Assembly: GCA_014801225.1 (NCBI GenBank)
Contig: JAAVEO010000016.1
Location: forward strand, 1-64,000
Origin: Bacteroides sp.
GTDB lineage: Bacteria; Bacteroidota; Bacteroidia; Bacteroidales; Muribaculaceae
Direction of reading: 5' to 3'
Length of the DNA: 64,000 nt
Part shown: in pieces, positions 35,299 through 41,131 of the stretch
Position numbering within the stretch: position 1 is the stretch's first letter
Layout: each line of letters begins with the position of its first letter
Position numbers and translations under genes: made by a program
The notes under the pieces: generated by a model
Database searches by the model: none
The model's input: the letters and a program-made list of their open reading frames with translations, nothing else
What the model was told of the DNA's origin: nothing

Positions 35299-35329
35299 TT
35301 AAGCCCGGATCGAGGGCAAATCAAATACA

Positions 35330-35860
35330 ATGACTGACGTGATGACGTCTGAGCAGCGTAGCCGCTGCATGGCGGCGGTGAAAGGGAAAGATACCAAGCC
35401 GGAGATGATTGTCCGGAAGTATCTGTTCTCCAGGGGTCTGCGCTATCGTGTCAACGTTCGGAAGTTGCCCGGCTCTCCTGACATTGTCTTGAAGAAATAT
35501 AAGACCGTCGTTTTTATCGACGGCTGCTTCTGGCACGGACATGAAGGCTGCAAATACTTCCGCCTGCCGAAAACAAACCGGGATTTCTGGCGTCATAAGA
35601 TAGCCATGAACTATGCCCGCGATTATGCCAACAACATAGATCTTGAGCTTGCGGGCTGGAGAGTGATACGCGTTTGGGAATGTGACGTAAAAACCAAGAT
35701 CAAGCGGGAAGAAACGCTTGAACGACTATATGCCCTGATTACCAAATCACCAAATATCGGGCATTATCAATCCAACGAAAATGATAATGAGTCAATAGCA
35801 GCCGAGCCGAATGAGCCGTATGGCAAGCTAAAGGATATTCTTTCAACGAAGAGATACTAA
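35330..35860 (+). CDS. vsr: Very short patch repair endonuclease
   Basis: Nicks DNA beside T:G mismatches that arise by deamination of 5-methylcytosine. The 176 residues contain the Vsr signature: MTSEQRSRCMAAVKGKDTKPE, GSPDIVLKKYKTVVFIDGCFWHGHEGCKYF in pattern form (catalytic Asp in GSPD and His in FWHGH), and NRDFWRHKI. The gene precedes a C5-methyltransferase, its expected functional partner. Base composition is like the host, in contrast to the AT-rich methyltransferase that follows after 227 bases. A C-terminal tail of about 35 residues is extra. Confidence 0.95.
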   Translation: MTDVMTSEQRSRCMAAVKGKDTKPEMIVRKYLFSRGLRYRVNVRKLPGSPDIVLKKYKTVVFIDGCFWHGHEGCKYFRLPKTNRDFWRHKIAMNYARDYANNIDLELAGWRVIRVWECDVKTKIKREETLERLYALITKSPNIGHYQSNENDNESIAAEPNEPYGKLKDILSTKRY

Positions 35861-35948
35861 TGTCATTATCTATGCAATTTTTGAGACACAGAATCTTAAC
35901 ACGCATCTTCACCATGTCTGATAATTAGGAAATCTCGAACACTTTTCG

Positions 35949-35956
35949 TAATTTTG
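35949..35956 (+). promoter_or_regulatory. Possible promoter -7 box of the methyltransferase gene
   Basis: TAATTTTG, about 145 bases before the ATG at 36100, in the 227-base gap after vsr. The long leader includes short inverted GAACTTC/GAAGTTC strings (36027-36087 region) whose meaning is unclear. Confidence 0.5.
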
Positions 35957-36099
35957 CAAGCTAAAACGCGCACGGGCTGACAACGACCAATTATGTAAGA
36001 AACATTTCTTATACAACATATTAACGGAACTTCAGTGTAGGCGAACAATAAGGGTTTGGTCGACTGTCAGCACTACCCGGAAGTTCTTTGTTATTTAAA

Positions 36100-37149
36100 A
36101 TGCCGACATTCCGATTAGGTGAATTATTTTCAGGGCCCGGTGGACTGGCATTCGGAGCACTTCAGTCAAAAAGCGCAGATGGGCGTTTTTCAGTTGAACA
36201 TGTATGGTCATCTGATTACGACCCAGATTCCTGTGCCACATATACGAAAAACATATGCCCGGAACATCCCGATTCAGTAATATGTCAGGATGTTCGTAAT
36301 CTTGATATTACCTCACTACAAGATATTGATGCTTTTGCTTATGGTTTTCCATGCAATAGCTTTTCTAATGTCGGTGAACATAAAGGATTGGCCAATGAAA
36401 AATTCGGACAATTATATTGGTACGGTATAGAAGTTCTTCGTAGATTTAAGCCGAAATGGTTTATTGCAGAGAATGTAAGCGGAATTAAATCTGCCGGAAA
36501 TAATGATTTTCAAATTATTCTTAAGGACATGAGAGACTCTGGCTATGAACTTACTGTTCATCAATACCATGCGGAGGATTATGGGATTCCTCAAACAAGA
36601 CATCGTGTTATAATAGTCGGTATTCGAGAGGACCTTAATGTAAAATTTCATGTACCCAATCCCGCAGATTTCAAAGATATAGATATTTCTTCACAAACAG
36701 CACTATTAAATATACCTATAAACGCACCCAATAACGAAATACGAGCTATTTCAGATAAAATAGTTGAGCGATTATCATATATTCCACCTGGTCAAAATAT
36801 ATGGCAGGCAGATGATGTAATGCCTGCTCATCTTAAAATAAATACGAAAACTAAAATTTCACAAATATATCGTAAGCTTGACCCCAATAAACCAAGTTAT
36901 ACAATTACAGCATCTGGTGGTGGTGGTACATTTGGTTATCATTGGTCTAATCGAGAACTTACTAATCGAGAACGAGCTCGAATACAAACGTTTCCCGATA
37001 ATTACGAATTTGTAGGAAAGTATGCCAGTGTACGTAAGCAGATAGGCATGGCGGTTCCATGCAAATTGAGTCAGGTTGTAGTTACGGCCATACTTAATAG
37101 TTTCGCAGGAATTGAATATAATCATATTAAACCAAATATCTTACTATAA
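36100..37149 (+). CDS. DNA (cytosine-5)-methyltransferase
   Basis: Modification enzyme of the restriction locus. The 349 residues start at the ATG 36100 (a TTG four codons upstream is possible). Motifs: I ELFSGPGG (8-15), IV GFPCNSFS with catalytic Cys85, VI ENV (124-126), VIII QTRHRVIIVGIR, and IX/X RERARIQTFPDNYEF and IGMAVPC. The target-recognition region is between VIII and IX. The gene is strongly AT-rich compared with vsr and with the downstream motor domain. It ends 1 base before the McrB-like gene. Recognition sequence unknown. Confidence 0.95.
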   Translation: MPTFRLGELFSGPGGLAFGALQSKSADGRFSVEHVWSSDYDPDSCATYTKNICPEHPDSVICQDVRNLDITSLQDIDAFAYGFPCNSFSNVGEHKGLANEKFGQLYWYGIEVLRRFKPKWFIAENVSGIKSAGNNDFQIILKDMRDSGYELTVHQYHAEDYGIPQTRHRVIIVGIREDLNVKFHVPNPADFKDIDISSQTALLNIPINAPNNEIRAISDKIVERLSYIPPGQNIWQADDVMPAHLKINTKTKISQIYRKLDPNKPSYTITASGGGGTFGYHWSNRELTNRERARIQTFPDNYEFVGKYASVRKQIGMAVPCKLSQVVVTAILNSFAGIEYNHIKPNILL

Positions 37150-37150
37150 C

Positions 37151-38803
37151 ATGAAATCAGTCGAAGTTAATCTATTTGATCGTAATGGGGACATTCAGTA
37201 TGGCTTAAATTGGGGAAATAGAGATAATCGTGATCGCAATGAAGCTTATCTTCAATTATCCCCCGATGTATACAAATCTAATTTCTTCCCTGAAAAAGGA
37301 ATTTACTTTGTTGTTGAAACAGATGATAATGAGACTCTAATAATGAATCGAGCGCAAAAAGGTGTAGGGACAGCAATTCAAACACCTGAAAATAATGCCA
37401 CATTAGGGTTATACATTAGAAAAAGATTAGGTATTCCTTCAGGAACTGAAATCACCGTCAATCATCTTAAAAATTCTAATTTAACAAAATTCATTTTCAC
37501 AAAAATAGATGATAAGCATTTTAGACTTTCAACAAATACTTTACAAGAAAATAATGATATCATATCTCTCGATTTAGAAAGCACAATTAAGAATGCCGAT
37601 GATAATACAAAACGGCAATTTGACTATCTTCGGGCGATGCGGACAAAGCCGTTCCTTTTGCTTGCGGGTATTTCGGGCACAGGAAAGAGTCGAATCGTAA
37701 AGCAGATGGCTTTCGATAGTTGCCCGGATAATGCGGAGCTTCGTTCTGACCCTACCTCTCCCGGCAATTATTGCCTTATCGAGGTCAAACCGAATTGGCA
37801 CGACTCTACCGAACTGCTCGGCTATGAAAGTAAAATCGGGGGAGCGCATTATCAACTCACTACGTTTGTGAAGTTCCTCATTAAAGCGATGCTTCACCCT
37901 AATGTTCCTTTCTTCGTATGCTTGGATGAAATGAACCTTGCCCCAGTGGAGCAATATTTCGCAGAGTTTCTGAGCGTGCTTGAAAGCCGCACAAAACTTG
38001 AAGACGGTCATATCGTTTCCGAACCGCTAATCAAAGCCGACATTTTCGCCAACAAGGATTACGAGCTTAAATTGCAGGATGATTTGTTCGGTCTTGAGCT
38101 TAAGGAAGAAATTAACAAAGACGGAAGCCAACGTATCATCAGTGGAAAACTTCCTGACGAAATGCAGCCGATGTATGAGGCTCTGAAGAAGCATGGTCTC
38201 CGTATTCCTGAAAATGTTGTTGTGATCGGCACGGTCAATATGGACGAAACCACGCATCAGTTCTCCCGCAAGGTGATCGACCGCGCAATGACCATCGAGA
38301 TGAATCTGCCGGAGGGCGACCCGTTTATGGACTTCTTTACCAACGCTTCCGACCTCTCATATCGAACCAACCCCACATCCGCATCGCTTTATCTCGCCAC
38401 AGAAACTAAAGCCAAGGATGTTATTAAGGATCTTTCCCTTGCTGATGACGGAAAGACGAAATGGCTCAAAGGTGAAATCGCCGGCGTTCTTACCCGGCTT
38501 AACGATGCGCTTGACGGCACTCCCTTCAAGGTGGCCTATCGCGTTCAGAACGAACTGCTACTCTACTTCTATCAGATGTGGCGCGAAAACAAATCTGCAA
38601 AGTGGAAAGAAATCCTCTATACTTCAGTGGACCAAATTCTGATGATGAAAGTATTGCCGCGAGTAGAGGGCGATGAAGAATTACTCGAAGGGCCACTCAA
38701 ACGTCTTATCGAGTTTGCGGCACCTTATCCCAACGCCAAGAAGAAACTGGATGAGATGAAAAAACGCCTCGAGCAATCGCGCTTCACATCATTCTGGCCC
38801 TAA
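37151..38803 (+). CDS. McrB-like AAA+ GTPase with N-terminal B3-like DNA-recognition domain (LlaJI.R1 type)
   Basis: Motor and specificity subunit of a restriction complex. The 550 residues start at 37151. Residues 8-135 resemble the B3-like DNA-binding domain of NgoFVII/BfiI-type enzymes (GLNWGNR, KSNFFPEKGIYFVVETDD, ATLGLYIRKRLGIPSG). The AAA+ domain follows: Walker A GISGTGKS (173-180), Walker B FFVCLDEMN (Asp259-Glu260), then GTVNMDETTH and a C-terminal helical part. B3-type N-domains are known from LlaJI.R1, whose complex cuts an unmodified specific site. Base composition changes abruptly near codon 155. Confidence 0.88.
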   Translation: MKSVEVNLFDRNGDIQYGLNWGNRDNRDRNEAYLQLSPDVYKSNFFPEKGIYFVVETDDNETLIMNRAQKGVGTAIQTPENNATLGLYIRKRLGIPSGTEITVNHLKNSNLTKFIFTKIDDKHFRLSTNTLQENNDIISLDLESTIKNADDNTKRQFDYLRAMRTKPFLLLAGISGTGKSRIVKQMAFDSCPDNAELRSDPTSPGNYCLIEVKPNWHDSTELLGYESKIGGAHYQLTTFVKFLIKAMLHPNVPFFVCLDEMNLAPVEQYFAEFLSVLESRTKLEDGHIVSEPLIKADIFANKDYELKLQDDLFGLELKEEINKDGSQRIISGKLPDEMQPMYEALKKHGLRIPENVVVIGTVNMDETTHQFSRKVIDRAMTIEMNLPEGDPFMDFFTNASDLSYRTNPTSASLYLATETKAKDVIKDLSLADDGKTKWLKGEIAGVLTRLNDALDGTPFKVAYRVQNELLLYFYQMWRENKSAKWKEILYTSVDQILMMKVLPRVEGDEELLEGPLKRLIEFAAPYPNAKKKLDEMKKRLEQSRFTSFWP

Positions 38804-38806
38804 ACT

Positions 38807-41131
38807 ATGGAAGTTCTCTCTTTCAAAAGCCATAATGTAAGAATCACTGCCAACACTGCCGCCGATATGGCAAACTGCTGGAAGAGATTCCGTTCACGTG
38901 TAGATACGCCTGAAAAAAAGAAAGCTGCCACATACTGCGACTATCGCAGTACGCTCCCCGGCACACTCGCTCTCGCCACTCCTCCAAGCTTTGATCTGCA
39001 CCCCGAGGGGGAAGCCGATTCTCAGGAATGGAAAGACCTGCCTCCCGTTTTTTATGAAACGGCCACTTACAATGTCAGTATATATCTCACCGATGTTGAC
39101 ACCGCCCCTTGTATTCTCCATAAAATGAAGGAAGTGACCGAACTCTTCTCGGTCATTCCTATCGGAGGCGAGAACTCGCATGAGTGGCTGATGTCGGCCC
39201 CTCTATCGTTTGTCAACGAGCCGGGAATATTTGAATTGACTTTCAAATATAAACCCTGCAGAAAACCGGAACGCACCGACACATTCTCTTTCCGCGTTGT
39301 TTCTCCGAAACTCGACACGAAAGATGACTACAACCATATCCTTGCGGAAATAAATGCCGAGTATAACGAAATCATCTATCAATATCTGACTCTAACGTTG
39401 CAGAATCTTCAACGTGGAGGAAAGTCGGATAATGATGTGATTTGGCTCTCTATCTTCCGCAACATTGCCAAGGAATATGAGAAGTGGGTACGCTATATCG
39501 CAGACAAGCCCCATCTGAGGCAGACGCGGCAAACCTACTTCGACCGCGCCGACCGCATCAAGCGTTGGTCGCCGCGAATGGAGGAACGATATGCACAGGT
39601 AGAAGCCGAGGGACGACTGGAGCATGAATACTTCCGCCACGATGAAATAATCCACACCCACAATACGCGCGAAAACCGGTTCGTAAAGTTTACACTCGAC
39701 CGCATCGGCAAGCGCCTGACCTCGATTGTAGCCACAATCAAAACCAAAAGCGCGAAAGCAAAAGCAGCCGACAAGGTAGCCGACGGCGAACTTGCCGAAC
39801 TTGACGGGTATGTGGCTTCTATCCGCAGGCTTGCCAATTCCAAGCTGTTCCGGACGCTGAGGGGCGAACCCTTGCGGAGCGAAAGCATGGTACTTCAAAA
39901 GCGCACAGGCTACGCGCAAGTATATAAATACTGGCTGCTCCTCCAAGAGGGGATAGAACTCTTCGAGGGTGCGAACGCTATCGGTGTGCGTCCTATATGG
40001 GAACTCTACGAATTATGGTGCTTTCTGAAAATGCGGCAAATGGTGGCCGACATTCTCGGTCTGCACTTCGGCAATCCTGATGAAATCACTGAAAATCCGA
40101 TGCCGATGGTAAAGCCCTTCGAGGACAACAACCAGGAGCATACGGTATATTACCATTGCGCCGACGGCTCAATGGCCCGACTTCACTATCAGCACACTTA
40201 CAGCCGCAAAACAGGCGAGGTTCACACGGCTACCACCGAGAACCGTCCCGACATCGTGCTTACCTTGGTCAAACCCGACGGGTTTGAGCTGACCTATCTA
40301 TTTGACGCAAAGTATCGTCTGATCGACGATAACAAGCTCAACAAAGAAGACCGCGATGAATGGTCGGCTTCAGGGGGAGCGGACACACCTCCTGCGGATG
40401 CAATCAATCAGATGCACCGCTACCGCGATGCAATCTATTACGGCTCTGACAAGCAGACGCATGCCGCCAAAGAGATTATCGGAGGCTACATACTTTTCCC
40501 CGGTCGAGGCGATAAGGAGAGTGTGCGTCAGCGTTTCTTCTACAAGAGTATCGAAACGGTCAACATCGGTGCATTCCCCTTGTTGCCTGACGCTTCCGAC
40601 CCCTCGAACGAGGGTTCGTTGCTATACGAATTTCTCACAAAAATTCTTCGGGCCGAGCGCGTCGCCACCCATTTGCAATCCGCAATTCCTCAAAAGGGTC
40701 TTGAATATCACATGGCTTATACCCCTGCGCCCACCGATCTTGTGCTCGTAGGGTATTACAAGACCGAACAATTGGAGGCAATCAAGCGCAATCGCCTCTA
40801 TTATGTGCCGGCCGCCATCGGGAAAGGCTCGATCAATCTCGTGTCAGGCTTCGAGAAAACGAAGTATCTCTTGCTGCATCACGACAACTACCGAATACTT
40901 GTGCGGCTCAAAGGCGACGGGCCGAAGTTCTATCCGAGAACCGCGCTCGAAGAGCTTGGTTTCACTCCTTCCGGCGATTTTTATCTCGGCTTTGAGATAG
41001 TCAATTTCGAACCGGTCCGGGATATCGACCCCTATGCCTACGAATTCGAACGCAAAGGCCAGTATCGTTTTACTCCTTACTTCACTACTATTGACAAATT
41101 ACTATCCTCCAATGAAGATTCTCATGCGTAG
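38807..41131 (+). CDS. DUF2357 / McrC-like restriction nuclease subunit (LlaJI.R2 type)
   Basis: Nuclease partner of the preceding GTPase. The 774 residues have a DUF2357-type N-terminal and helical middle part (about 1-430). A PD-(D/E)XK centre follows: Asp482 in ENRPDIVLTLV and Asp500-Ala-Lys502 in YLFDAKYRL, with a downstream Gln in NQMHRYRDA. After the nuclease comes about 130 residues (from TDLVLVGYYKTEQ) of unrecognised type, possibly PUA-like. The gene starts 3 bases after the GTPase gene, and its base composition is host-like. Confidence 0.85.
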   Translation: MEVLSFKSHNVRITANTAADMANCWKRFRSRVDTPEKKKAATYCDYRSTLPGTLALATPPSFDLHPEGEADSQEWKDLPPVFYETATYNVSIYLTDVDTAPCILHKMKEVTELFSVIPIGGENSHEWLMSAPLSFVNEPGIFELTFKYKPCRKPERTDTFSFRVVSPKLDTKDDYNHILAEINAEYNEIIYQYLTLTLQNLQRGGKSDNDVIWLSIFRNIAKEYEKWVRYIADKPHLRQTRQTYFDRADRIKRWSPRMEERYAQVEAEGRLEHEYFRHDEIIHTHNTRENRFVKFTLDRIGKRLTSIVATIKTKSAKAKAADKVADGELAELDGYVASIRRLANSKLFRTLRGEPLRSESMVLQKRTGYAQVYKYWLLLQEGIELFEGANAIGVRPIWELYELWCFLKMRQMVADILGLHFGNPDEITENPMPMVKPFEDNNQEHTVYYHCADGSMARLHYQHTYSRKTGEVHTATTENRPDIVLTLVKPDGFELTYLFDAKYRLIDDNKLNKEDRDEWSASGGADTPPADAINQMHRYRDAIYYGSDKQTHAAKEIIGGYILFPGRGDKESVRQRFFYKSIETVNIGAFPLLPDASDPSNEGSLLYEFLTKILRAERVATHLQSAIPQKGLEYHMAYTPAPTDLVLVGYYKTEQLEAIKRNRLYYVPAAIGKGSINLVSGFEKTKYLLLHHDNYRILVRLKGDGPKFYPRTALEELGFTPSGDFYLGFEIVNFEPVRDIDPYAYEFERKGQYRFTPYFTTIDKLLSSNEDSHA

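Follow-up and report, generated by a model that had tools for sequence, protein, structure and literature searches.

A LlaJI-like restriction system of the Muribaculaceae with an AT-rich methylase and recognition cassette, probably exchanged as a unit, on a lineage-restricted McrBC engine

Background

In a 64,000-nucleotide stretch of DNA from a Bacteroides sp. of the family Muribaculaceae (assembly GCA_014801225.1, contig JAAVEO010000016.1, positions 1 to 64,000 of the forward strand; the whole stretch is called the window here), we studied a predicted restriction system encoded on the + strand that resembles LlaJI. Its first gene, vsr (35330..35860), encodes a very-short-patch mismatch endonuclease of 176 amino acids (aa; PF03852, E 5.6e-34; TIGR00632). 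It is followed by a conserved structured leader with a promoter-like start and crossing helices (35948..36089), which scores 126 bits with our RNA model R1, the window leader being one of the 10 sequences used to build that model, and which would form the upstream edge of an exchangeable cassette. The cassette, presented here as the swapped part, comprises a C5-cytosine DNA methylase of 349 aa from its ATG (36100..37149; PF00145, E 3.6e-69) and the N-terminal domain of McrB (37151..37538), a B3-like DNA-recognition domain of the NgoFVII C-terminal type (PF20731, E 1.5e-20; residues 17-133, counted in frame from 37112). McrB extends from 37151 to 38803 and probably starts at the ATG at 37151, one base behind the methylase stop, rather than at the TTG at 37112. 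The engine part consists of the McrB AAA+ motor (37607..38803), with Walker A motif GISGTGKS and NxD-type motif GTVNMDE, and of McrC (38807..41131), with DUF2357 and a PD-(D/E)xK nuclease (PF09823, E 9.8e-34; PF04411, E 5.7e-34). The motor stays under the Pfam cut-off for AAA_5 (18.9 versus 22 bits) and matches PADLOC PDC-M26A with E 2.7e-42. No solved relative of McrB was found by phmmer, and a profile search with the N-domain gave only a match of E 0.2, to a glucosyltransferase; the B3 fold is assigned from Pfam.

According to the parts of the reports available to us, LlaJI from Lactococcus combines a McrB-like subunit that has its own N-terminal site-recognition part, a McrC-like nuclease and 5-methylcytosine (m5C) methylation, acts on unmethylated DNA (PMC1459862) and recognizes its site by a B3 domain (PMC12707154). 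The window system shares this composition: a McrB-like AAA+ subunit with an N-terminal recognition domain of predicted specificity (PF20731 together with the Walker A and NxD motifs), an adjoining McrC-like PD-(D/E)xK nuclease and an m5C methylase within the operon. LlaJI possesses two methylases for its asymmetric site, whereas only one lies between vsr and McrC in the window. The two-methylase trait may distinguish the LlaJI prototype rather than define the family, and a single methylase suggests a site that can be protected on both strands by one enzyme. A type IV, modification-dependent McrBC, which works without cognate methylase, is argued against by the operon methylase and by a B3-like domain whose family is named after a restriction endonuclease. 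Traits of CoCoNuT systems (long coiled-coil fusions, RNA-binding domains) are absent from the Pfam listing of McrB and McrC, which does not compute coiled coils.

A restriction system that acquires a new target should kill its own cell unless protection is altered along with cutting. In type I systems, target-recognition modules of HsdS are exchanged on a constant engine, and the same S subunit is used in cutting and in methylation. The window system likewise appears to swap recognition modules on a constant engine, but it needs two separate genes to be swapped together.

Results and discussion

Composition of the block and its borders

The first-pass annotation of this DNA had described an AT-rich block from the vsr stop to about codon 155 of the McrB-like gene. 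The block is real and unmatched in the window, with 35.8% G+C at 35861-37615 compared to 50.4% for the whole window and 41.6% for the lowest other 1755-base stretch not overlapping it; the 20-38% G+C that had been given for its 60-base lines holds for only 17 of 29 lines, the other 12 reaching up to 53%. AT-richness here is a third-position bias and not only one of overall composition. G+C at third codon positions (GC3) amounts to 0.229 in the methylase and 0.204 in the McrB N-domain, compared to about 0.54-0.55 in the motor and 0.58 in both McrC and vsr, and ranges from 0.46 to 0.68 in the 32 other non-overlapping open reading frames (ORFs) of at least 200 aa in the window. The motor and nuclease are host-like, as had been claimed, 37616-41131 having 49.6% G+C.

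The right border lies where it had been placed, between recognition domain and motor, more precisely between the B3-like domain and Walker A. There, G+C jumps within one line from 33% (37561-37620) to 55% (37621-37680; 57% in the earlier count), and GC3 in McrB has a change-point at 37631 (support interval 37580-37637, log-likelihood ratio 27.3), a ratio reached in 0 of 500 permutations. This change-point falls 1-10 bases from the start of DNA similarity to motor relatives (37621-37630). The left border proved to be misplaced at the vsr stop: raw G+C shifts already inside vsr, at 35679 (35569-35764). The GC3 of vsr is host-like, its last third has 41% G+C, and vsr belongs to a probably inserted island, as discussed below.

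Modularity of related loci

The window McrB was searched at E<=1e-20 in 397 genomes of the window organism's family, one genome per species, and matched in 31, its own genome included. Among the 30 other genomes, 28 match the motor only and two (G308 and G390) the N-domain only; the N-domain-only matches end at residues 140 and 142, and the motor matches that include the motor start begin at residues 137-171. A plasmid search yielded McrB relatives below 60% only, and a second genus search (111 genomes) one further weak match. From the McrB-matching genomes 31 loci were taken for comparison (designated, like those from later searches, by L numbers). In the 16 loci with a motor identity of at least 60%, the best blastp identity to the window methylase is 24-34%, four of them, L049 among these, having no match at 1e-5, and the window N-domain shares a cluster with none of their N-parts. 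At a threshold of 40% identity, the N-parts found on the window's motor family group into 5 clusters plus 13 singletons, contig ends truncating some of these.

The cassette was found on another engine in L050 (methylase 89% and N-domain 63% identical to the window) and L051 (73% and 57%). The motors of these two loci, with GAPGTGKS and TMNTSD, are of the NxxD type; the NxD motif is present in the window and in 26 of 29 motor relatives, the stretch being missing in L049, L061 and L062. Aligned in full, the McrB proteins of the window and L050 are 33% identical including the N-domain, which makes their engines distantly related. Similarity between the L050 McrB and its nearest relatives by motor (L172, L174, L192) sets in no earlier than residue 136-142 and, to judge from this, the second (NxxD) engine has the same kind of border between N-domain and motor.

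At the DNA level, the borders seen with the relatives agree with a cassette. L050 aligns with the window at 35944-37528 only (78%). Similarity to L035 covers vsr and leader (35320-36086, 75%) and resumes at 37630, and that to L032 covers vsr and resumes at 37625, the motor relatives together resuming at 37621-37630. The downstream junction between cassette and engine, from the end of N-domain homology to the start of motor homology and including the GC3 change-point, is mapped to about 100 bases (37538..37637). As a separate observation, a short ORF in L061 (L061:7230-8000), beside a 771-aa McrC, by eye starts like the L041 methylase and ends like the motor, and resembles what a deletion would leave of a system. 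L062 was considered as a recombinant inside the motor and discarded: its ORF contains a run of unknown bases and was taken as an assembly join.

Covariation and trees

In a set of 23 loci, similarity of the methylases goes with that of the N-domains (r 0.714, 0 of 5000 permutations) but not with that of the motors (r 0.079, 613 of 5000); without two near-duplicates these values become 0.682 (0) and -0.017 (2606 of 5000). Motor and McrC covary strongly (r 0.971, 0 of 2000, 19 loci). The 23-locus test was done without L062, which was kept in the 25-locus rank run, the GC3 step counts and the leader set, and without L059, where the gene upstream encodes something other than a methylase; also outside the covariation set are L044 and L060 (no methylase in the stretch), L049 and L061 (motor too short or broken), L052 (N part too short) and L050 and L051 (other motor type).

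The trees of the different parts, whose comparison had been proposed as a check, are incongruent. On the 27-row motor tree, methylase types T1 to T5, with 7, 3, 3, 3 and 2 members, require 6, 3, 3, 2 and 1 changes, and four of the five are split up; the approximately unbiased (AU) test on this tree rejects a single clade for T1 (3e-26), T3 (8e-8) and T4 (3e-63). In a methylase tree of 23 rows, monophyly is rejected for two engine groups (1e-21 and 4e-8), with a long-branch warning. The idea that specificity and matching protection were swapped jointly is supported by phylogeny better than by composition, the 28 motor-only versus 2 N-domain-only matches and the same methylase on another engine pointing in the same direction.

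Proposed explanation and evidence against it

We consider it likely that the locus is a LlaJI-like system of two largely independent blocks, a lineage engine and an AT-rich specificity cassette exchanged mostly as a unit. The modular boundaries, the incongruence, the covariation of methylase and N-domain and the composition step can be read from the sequences themselves; from these we infer a biochemical activity, a recognition site, a direction of exchange and homologous recombination as its route. In this explanation, the m5C methylase would protect a short site, the B3-like domain on McrB would find that site when unmethylated, and the McrB AAA+ ring would move on or pull the DNA, which McrC would cut. 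The engine (motor and McrC), near host composition and restricted to the lineage at high identity as far as searched, would stay constant, and exchange of methylase and McrB N-domain mostly as a unit would make reading and protection change together. The leader and the motor start, common to otherwise unrelated cassettes, could serve as homology arms, with crossing-over possibly taking place at both.

Several observations weigh against this explanation. A recent swap (a near-identical engine with a different cassette, or the reverse) was not seen in the collection with one genome per species, and the nearest cassette relative, L050, is only 78% identical at the DNA level. Topology does not prove the direction of exchange, which rests on composition and on a host range as searched in family and phylum genomes and in plasmids. 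N-domain and motor show a weak correlation in the 23 loci (r 0.285, 0 of 5000), and still do without the two near-duplicates (0.154, 120 of 5000). By rank, the correlation of methylase and N-domain is itself weak (0.163, 47 of 2000, 25 loci; 0.144, 131 of 2000, 19 loci), because most locus pairs are unrelated in both parts and it is the clearly related ones that carry the signal. A single clade on the motor tree is not rejected by the AU test for T2 (p 0.16) and T5 (p 0.24), the T2 result being odd with a log-likelihood 329 lower. Finally, L079, L081 and L082 combine a window-type methylase (66-74%) with a FokI-domain enzyme, and L174 has a T3 methylase (85% identical to L035) with a different N-domain, on an NxxD engine. 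Since the L174 N-domain differs and the FokI cases use another reader, the pair of methylase and reader is neither obligate nor strictly coupled. The gene starts of L176 are the same as those of L174.

Direction of the proposed exchange and the probably inserted island

The reverse direction, in which methylase and N-domain were resident and motor and McrC were replaced, is unlikely in our view, although topology alone is symmetric and the same cassette type occurs on NxD and NxxD engines. A replaced engine agrees poorly with its host range. Where found among the family loci with a motor identity of at least 60%, which was in 14 of them, McrC is 58-85% identical; outside the family it was matched in only 2 of 296 phylum genomes, at 31-34% identity. 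Neither does a replaced engine agree with composition. The GC3 of motor and McrC correlates with that of the host (rho 0.46 each, p 0.011 and 0.022), whereas the correlation is not significant for methylase and N-domain (0.28 and 0.21). Compared to host GC3, with the window included, the methylase is lower in 27 of 27 loci (mean -0.272) and the N-domain in 28 of 28 (mean -0.262), the motor in 23 of 29 (mean -0.091) and McrC in 20 of 25 (mean -0.077); the host value was calculated for each genome from one or two stretches no longer than 20 kb, and L054 was dropped, being without host sequence.

Moreover, the whole set seems to be inserted, which speaks against the reverse direction. HlyC/CorC adjoins PPTase in all 11 other genus loci that were read, and none of these 11 has a vsr match beyond PPTase, within flanks of 1500 bases in nine and of 482 and 135 bases in two; in L260 an AspT-like gene (48%) takes that position. 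Since the other genus loci are without vsr match there, the genes vsr through McrC were probably inserted, with vsr being no part of the host backbone. Judging by its relatives, vsr does not follow the cassette either: it is 62-83% identical in L032, L034, L035, L039, L049 and L051, of which L051 alone has a window-type methylase. In L049 an N6-methyladenine D12 methylase takes the same place behind vsr, with no match to the window methylase within the 8 kb examined, and the stretch L049:5518-8159 holds vsr, this D12 adenine methylase and an 89% identical motor start, ended by the contig end. This vsr looks as if it had been left behind after a swap.

Origin of the composition step

The composition step is not peculiar to the window. 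Among the relatives, 28 of 29 have an N-domain with a GC3 below that of the motor, and 27 of 28 a methylase for which this holds; these counts take in the assembly join L062. L042 and L043 show almost no step. The family-wide occurrence marks a recurrent process rather than one event, and the step alone does not date one event. The first-pass annotation had named the same step in homologues, caused by intrinsic codon bias of the domains, as the finding that would speak against an exchange. The step did recur, and fits an explanation in which specificity domains and methylases are AT-rich by selection, for instance on expression or amino-acid make-up, without any exchange. We nevertheless regard such intrinsic bias as improbable, more so than a replaced engine. 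It explains the step poorly because the N-domains, across which the third-position step extends, are mostly dissimilar to each other, and because methylase homologues elsewhere are hardly richer in AT than the DNA on either side (mean difference -0.02; lower in 20 of 34; GC3 as high as 0.70; 34 of the 48 loci of the wider scan described below had enough flank). Furthermore, it leaves the incongruence between the parts unexplained. That cassettes have come repeatedly from an AT-rich pool is more likely than domain-intrinsic bias. A single ancient mosaic, inherited since and with AT-rich DNA from one donor, would suit the modest DNA identity between the cassettes of the window and L050, but is highly improbable: the diversity of N-parts on one motor family and the recurrence of methylase types on distant motors indicate that the exchange proposed here was recurrent.

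Breadth of the cassette and known systems

A scan of the genome collection gave 48 loci with relatives of the window methylase, relatives of 66-74% identity being found in Bacillota and Akkermansiaceae genomes. Partners of these methylases include NgoFVII-type PLD nucleases with a B3 domain (L078, L080, L120, L121). NgoFVII recognizes GCSGC. The B3-like PF20731 family, which takes its name from the DNA-binding portion of NgoFVII, and a related methylase (L078, L080, L120) are common to the NgoFVII type and the window, but the domain sits at the C-terminus of a PLD nuclease in the former and at the N-terminus of an AAA+ motor in the latter. A 697-aa protein encoded at L120:7995-10088 fuses methylase, PLD nuclease and B3-like domain.

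The NxD signature marks one major McrB branch, and the methylase-associated NxD McrB GTPases share with the window the NxD motif followed by E (GTVNMDE), a DUF2357 McrC and a methylase neighbour; in the portion of the report available to us, this group is deferred to a later publication and no cassette exchange is described (PMC11090510). Likewise, the available portion of the LlaJI report (PMC1459862) describes no vsr, leader, or exchange of methylase and N-domain. In the openly licensed PMC literature, at the level of listings and abstracts, no report was found of methylase and McrB N-domain being exchanged jointly. Recurrence across a family, the use of NxD and NxxD engines and the leader seem to be new. 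The family provides many natural examples of how the joint change of cutting and protection may be solved with reader and methylase in separate genes. By its example, new combinations of engine and specificity seem feasible, and comparison of cassettes makes the recognition code of the McrB N-domain testable.

The leader RNA

The leader (35948-36089), with the promoter-like start GTAAYTTTGCA, may represent a new RNA family associated with antiviral operons. A model built from 10 sequences and used in Infernal with stricter filters (E<=1e-5 in the family scan) matches 113 of the 397 family genomes and 1 of the 296 phylum genomes, the latter being the window's own. No Rfam match was obtained up to E 1, and the openly licensed PMC literature, searched at the same level as above, yielded no account of a leader RNA for restriction genes in Bacteroidales. 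An alignment of 71 copies, of which 70 are distinct and 10 are those of the model, has 91.5% of its cells paired, compared to at most 45.6% for slid versions of the pairing; 22 of 28 pairs change on both sides, and 0 of 500 shuffles reach these counts. Helices 1 and 3/4 cross, and 3/4 is absent from the model.

To describe the leader neighbourhoods, 60 of the listed places were taken and 59 first genes were picked by script; their proteins are mostly unrelated and were aligned only for joint scanning. Restriction genes often follow the leader: of the first genes, 29 match C5 methylases, and other matches, which may overlap, are to Eco47II (4), MutH (4), SNF2 (4), HsdM_N (3), Vsr (2) and AAA_5 (2). 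Only 10 bases separate the end of the window leader from the methylase ATG, and the leader therefore may control translation of the methylase. More tentatively, and with some doubt on our part, the system could have a plug-in architecture, in which a constant pseudoknot-forming leader would be the common 5' regulatory and recombination dock for many unrelated restriction cassettes of the family, with methylase and reader being exchanged as a unit among NxD and NxxD engines behind it. Variant leaders (L195-L199, L201-L204) score 45-53 bits and, by eye, have compensatory changes in helices 1 and 3; several of the first genes behind them resemble, again by eye, HsdM or helicases.

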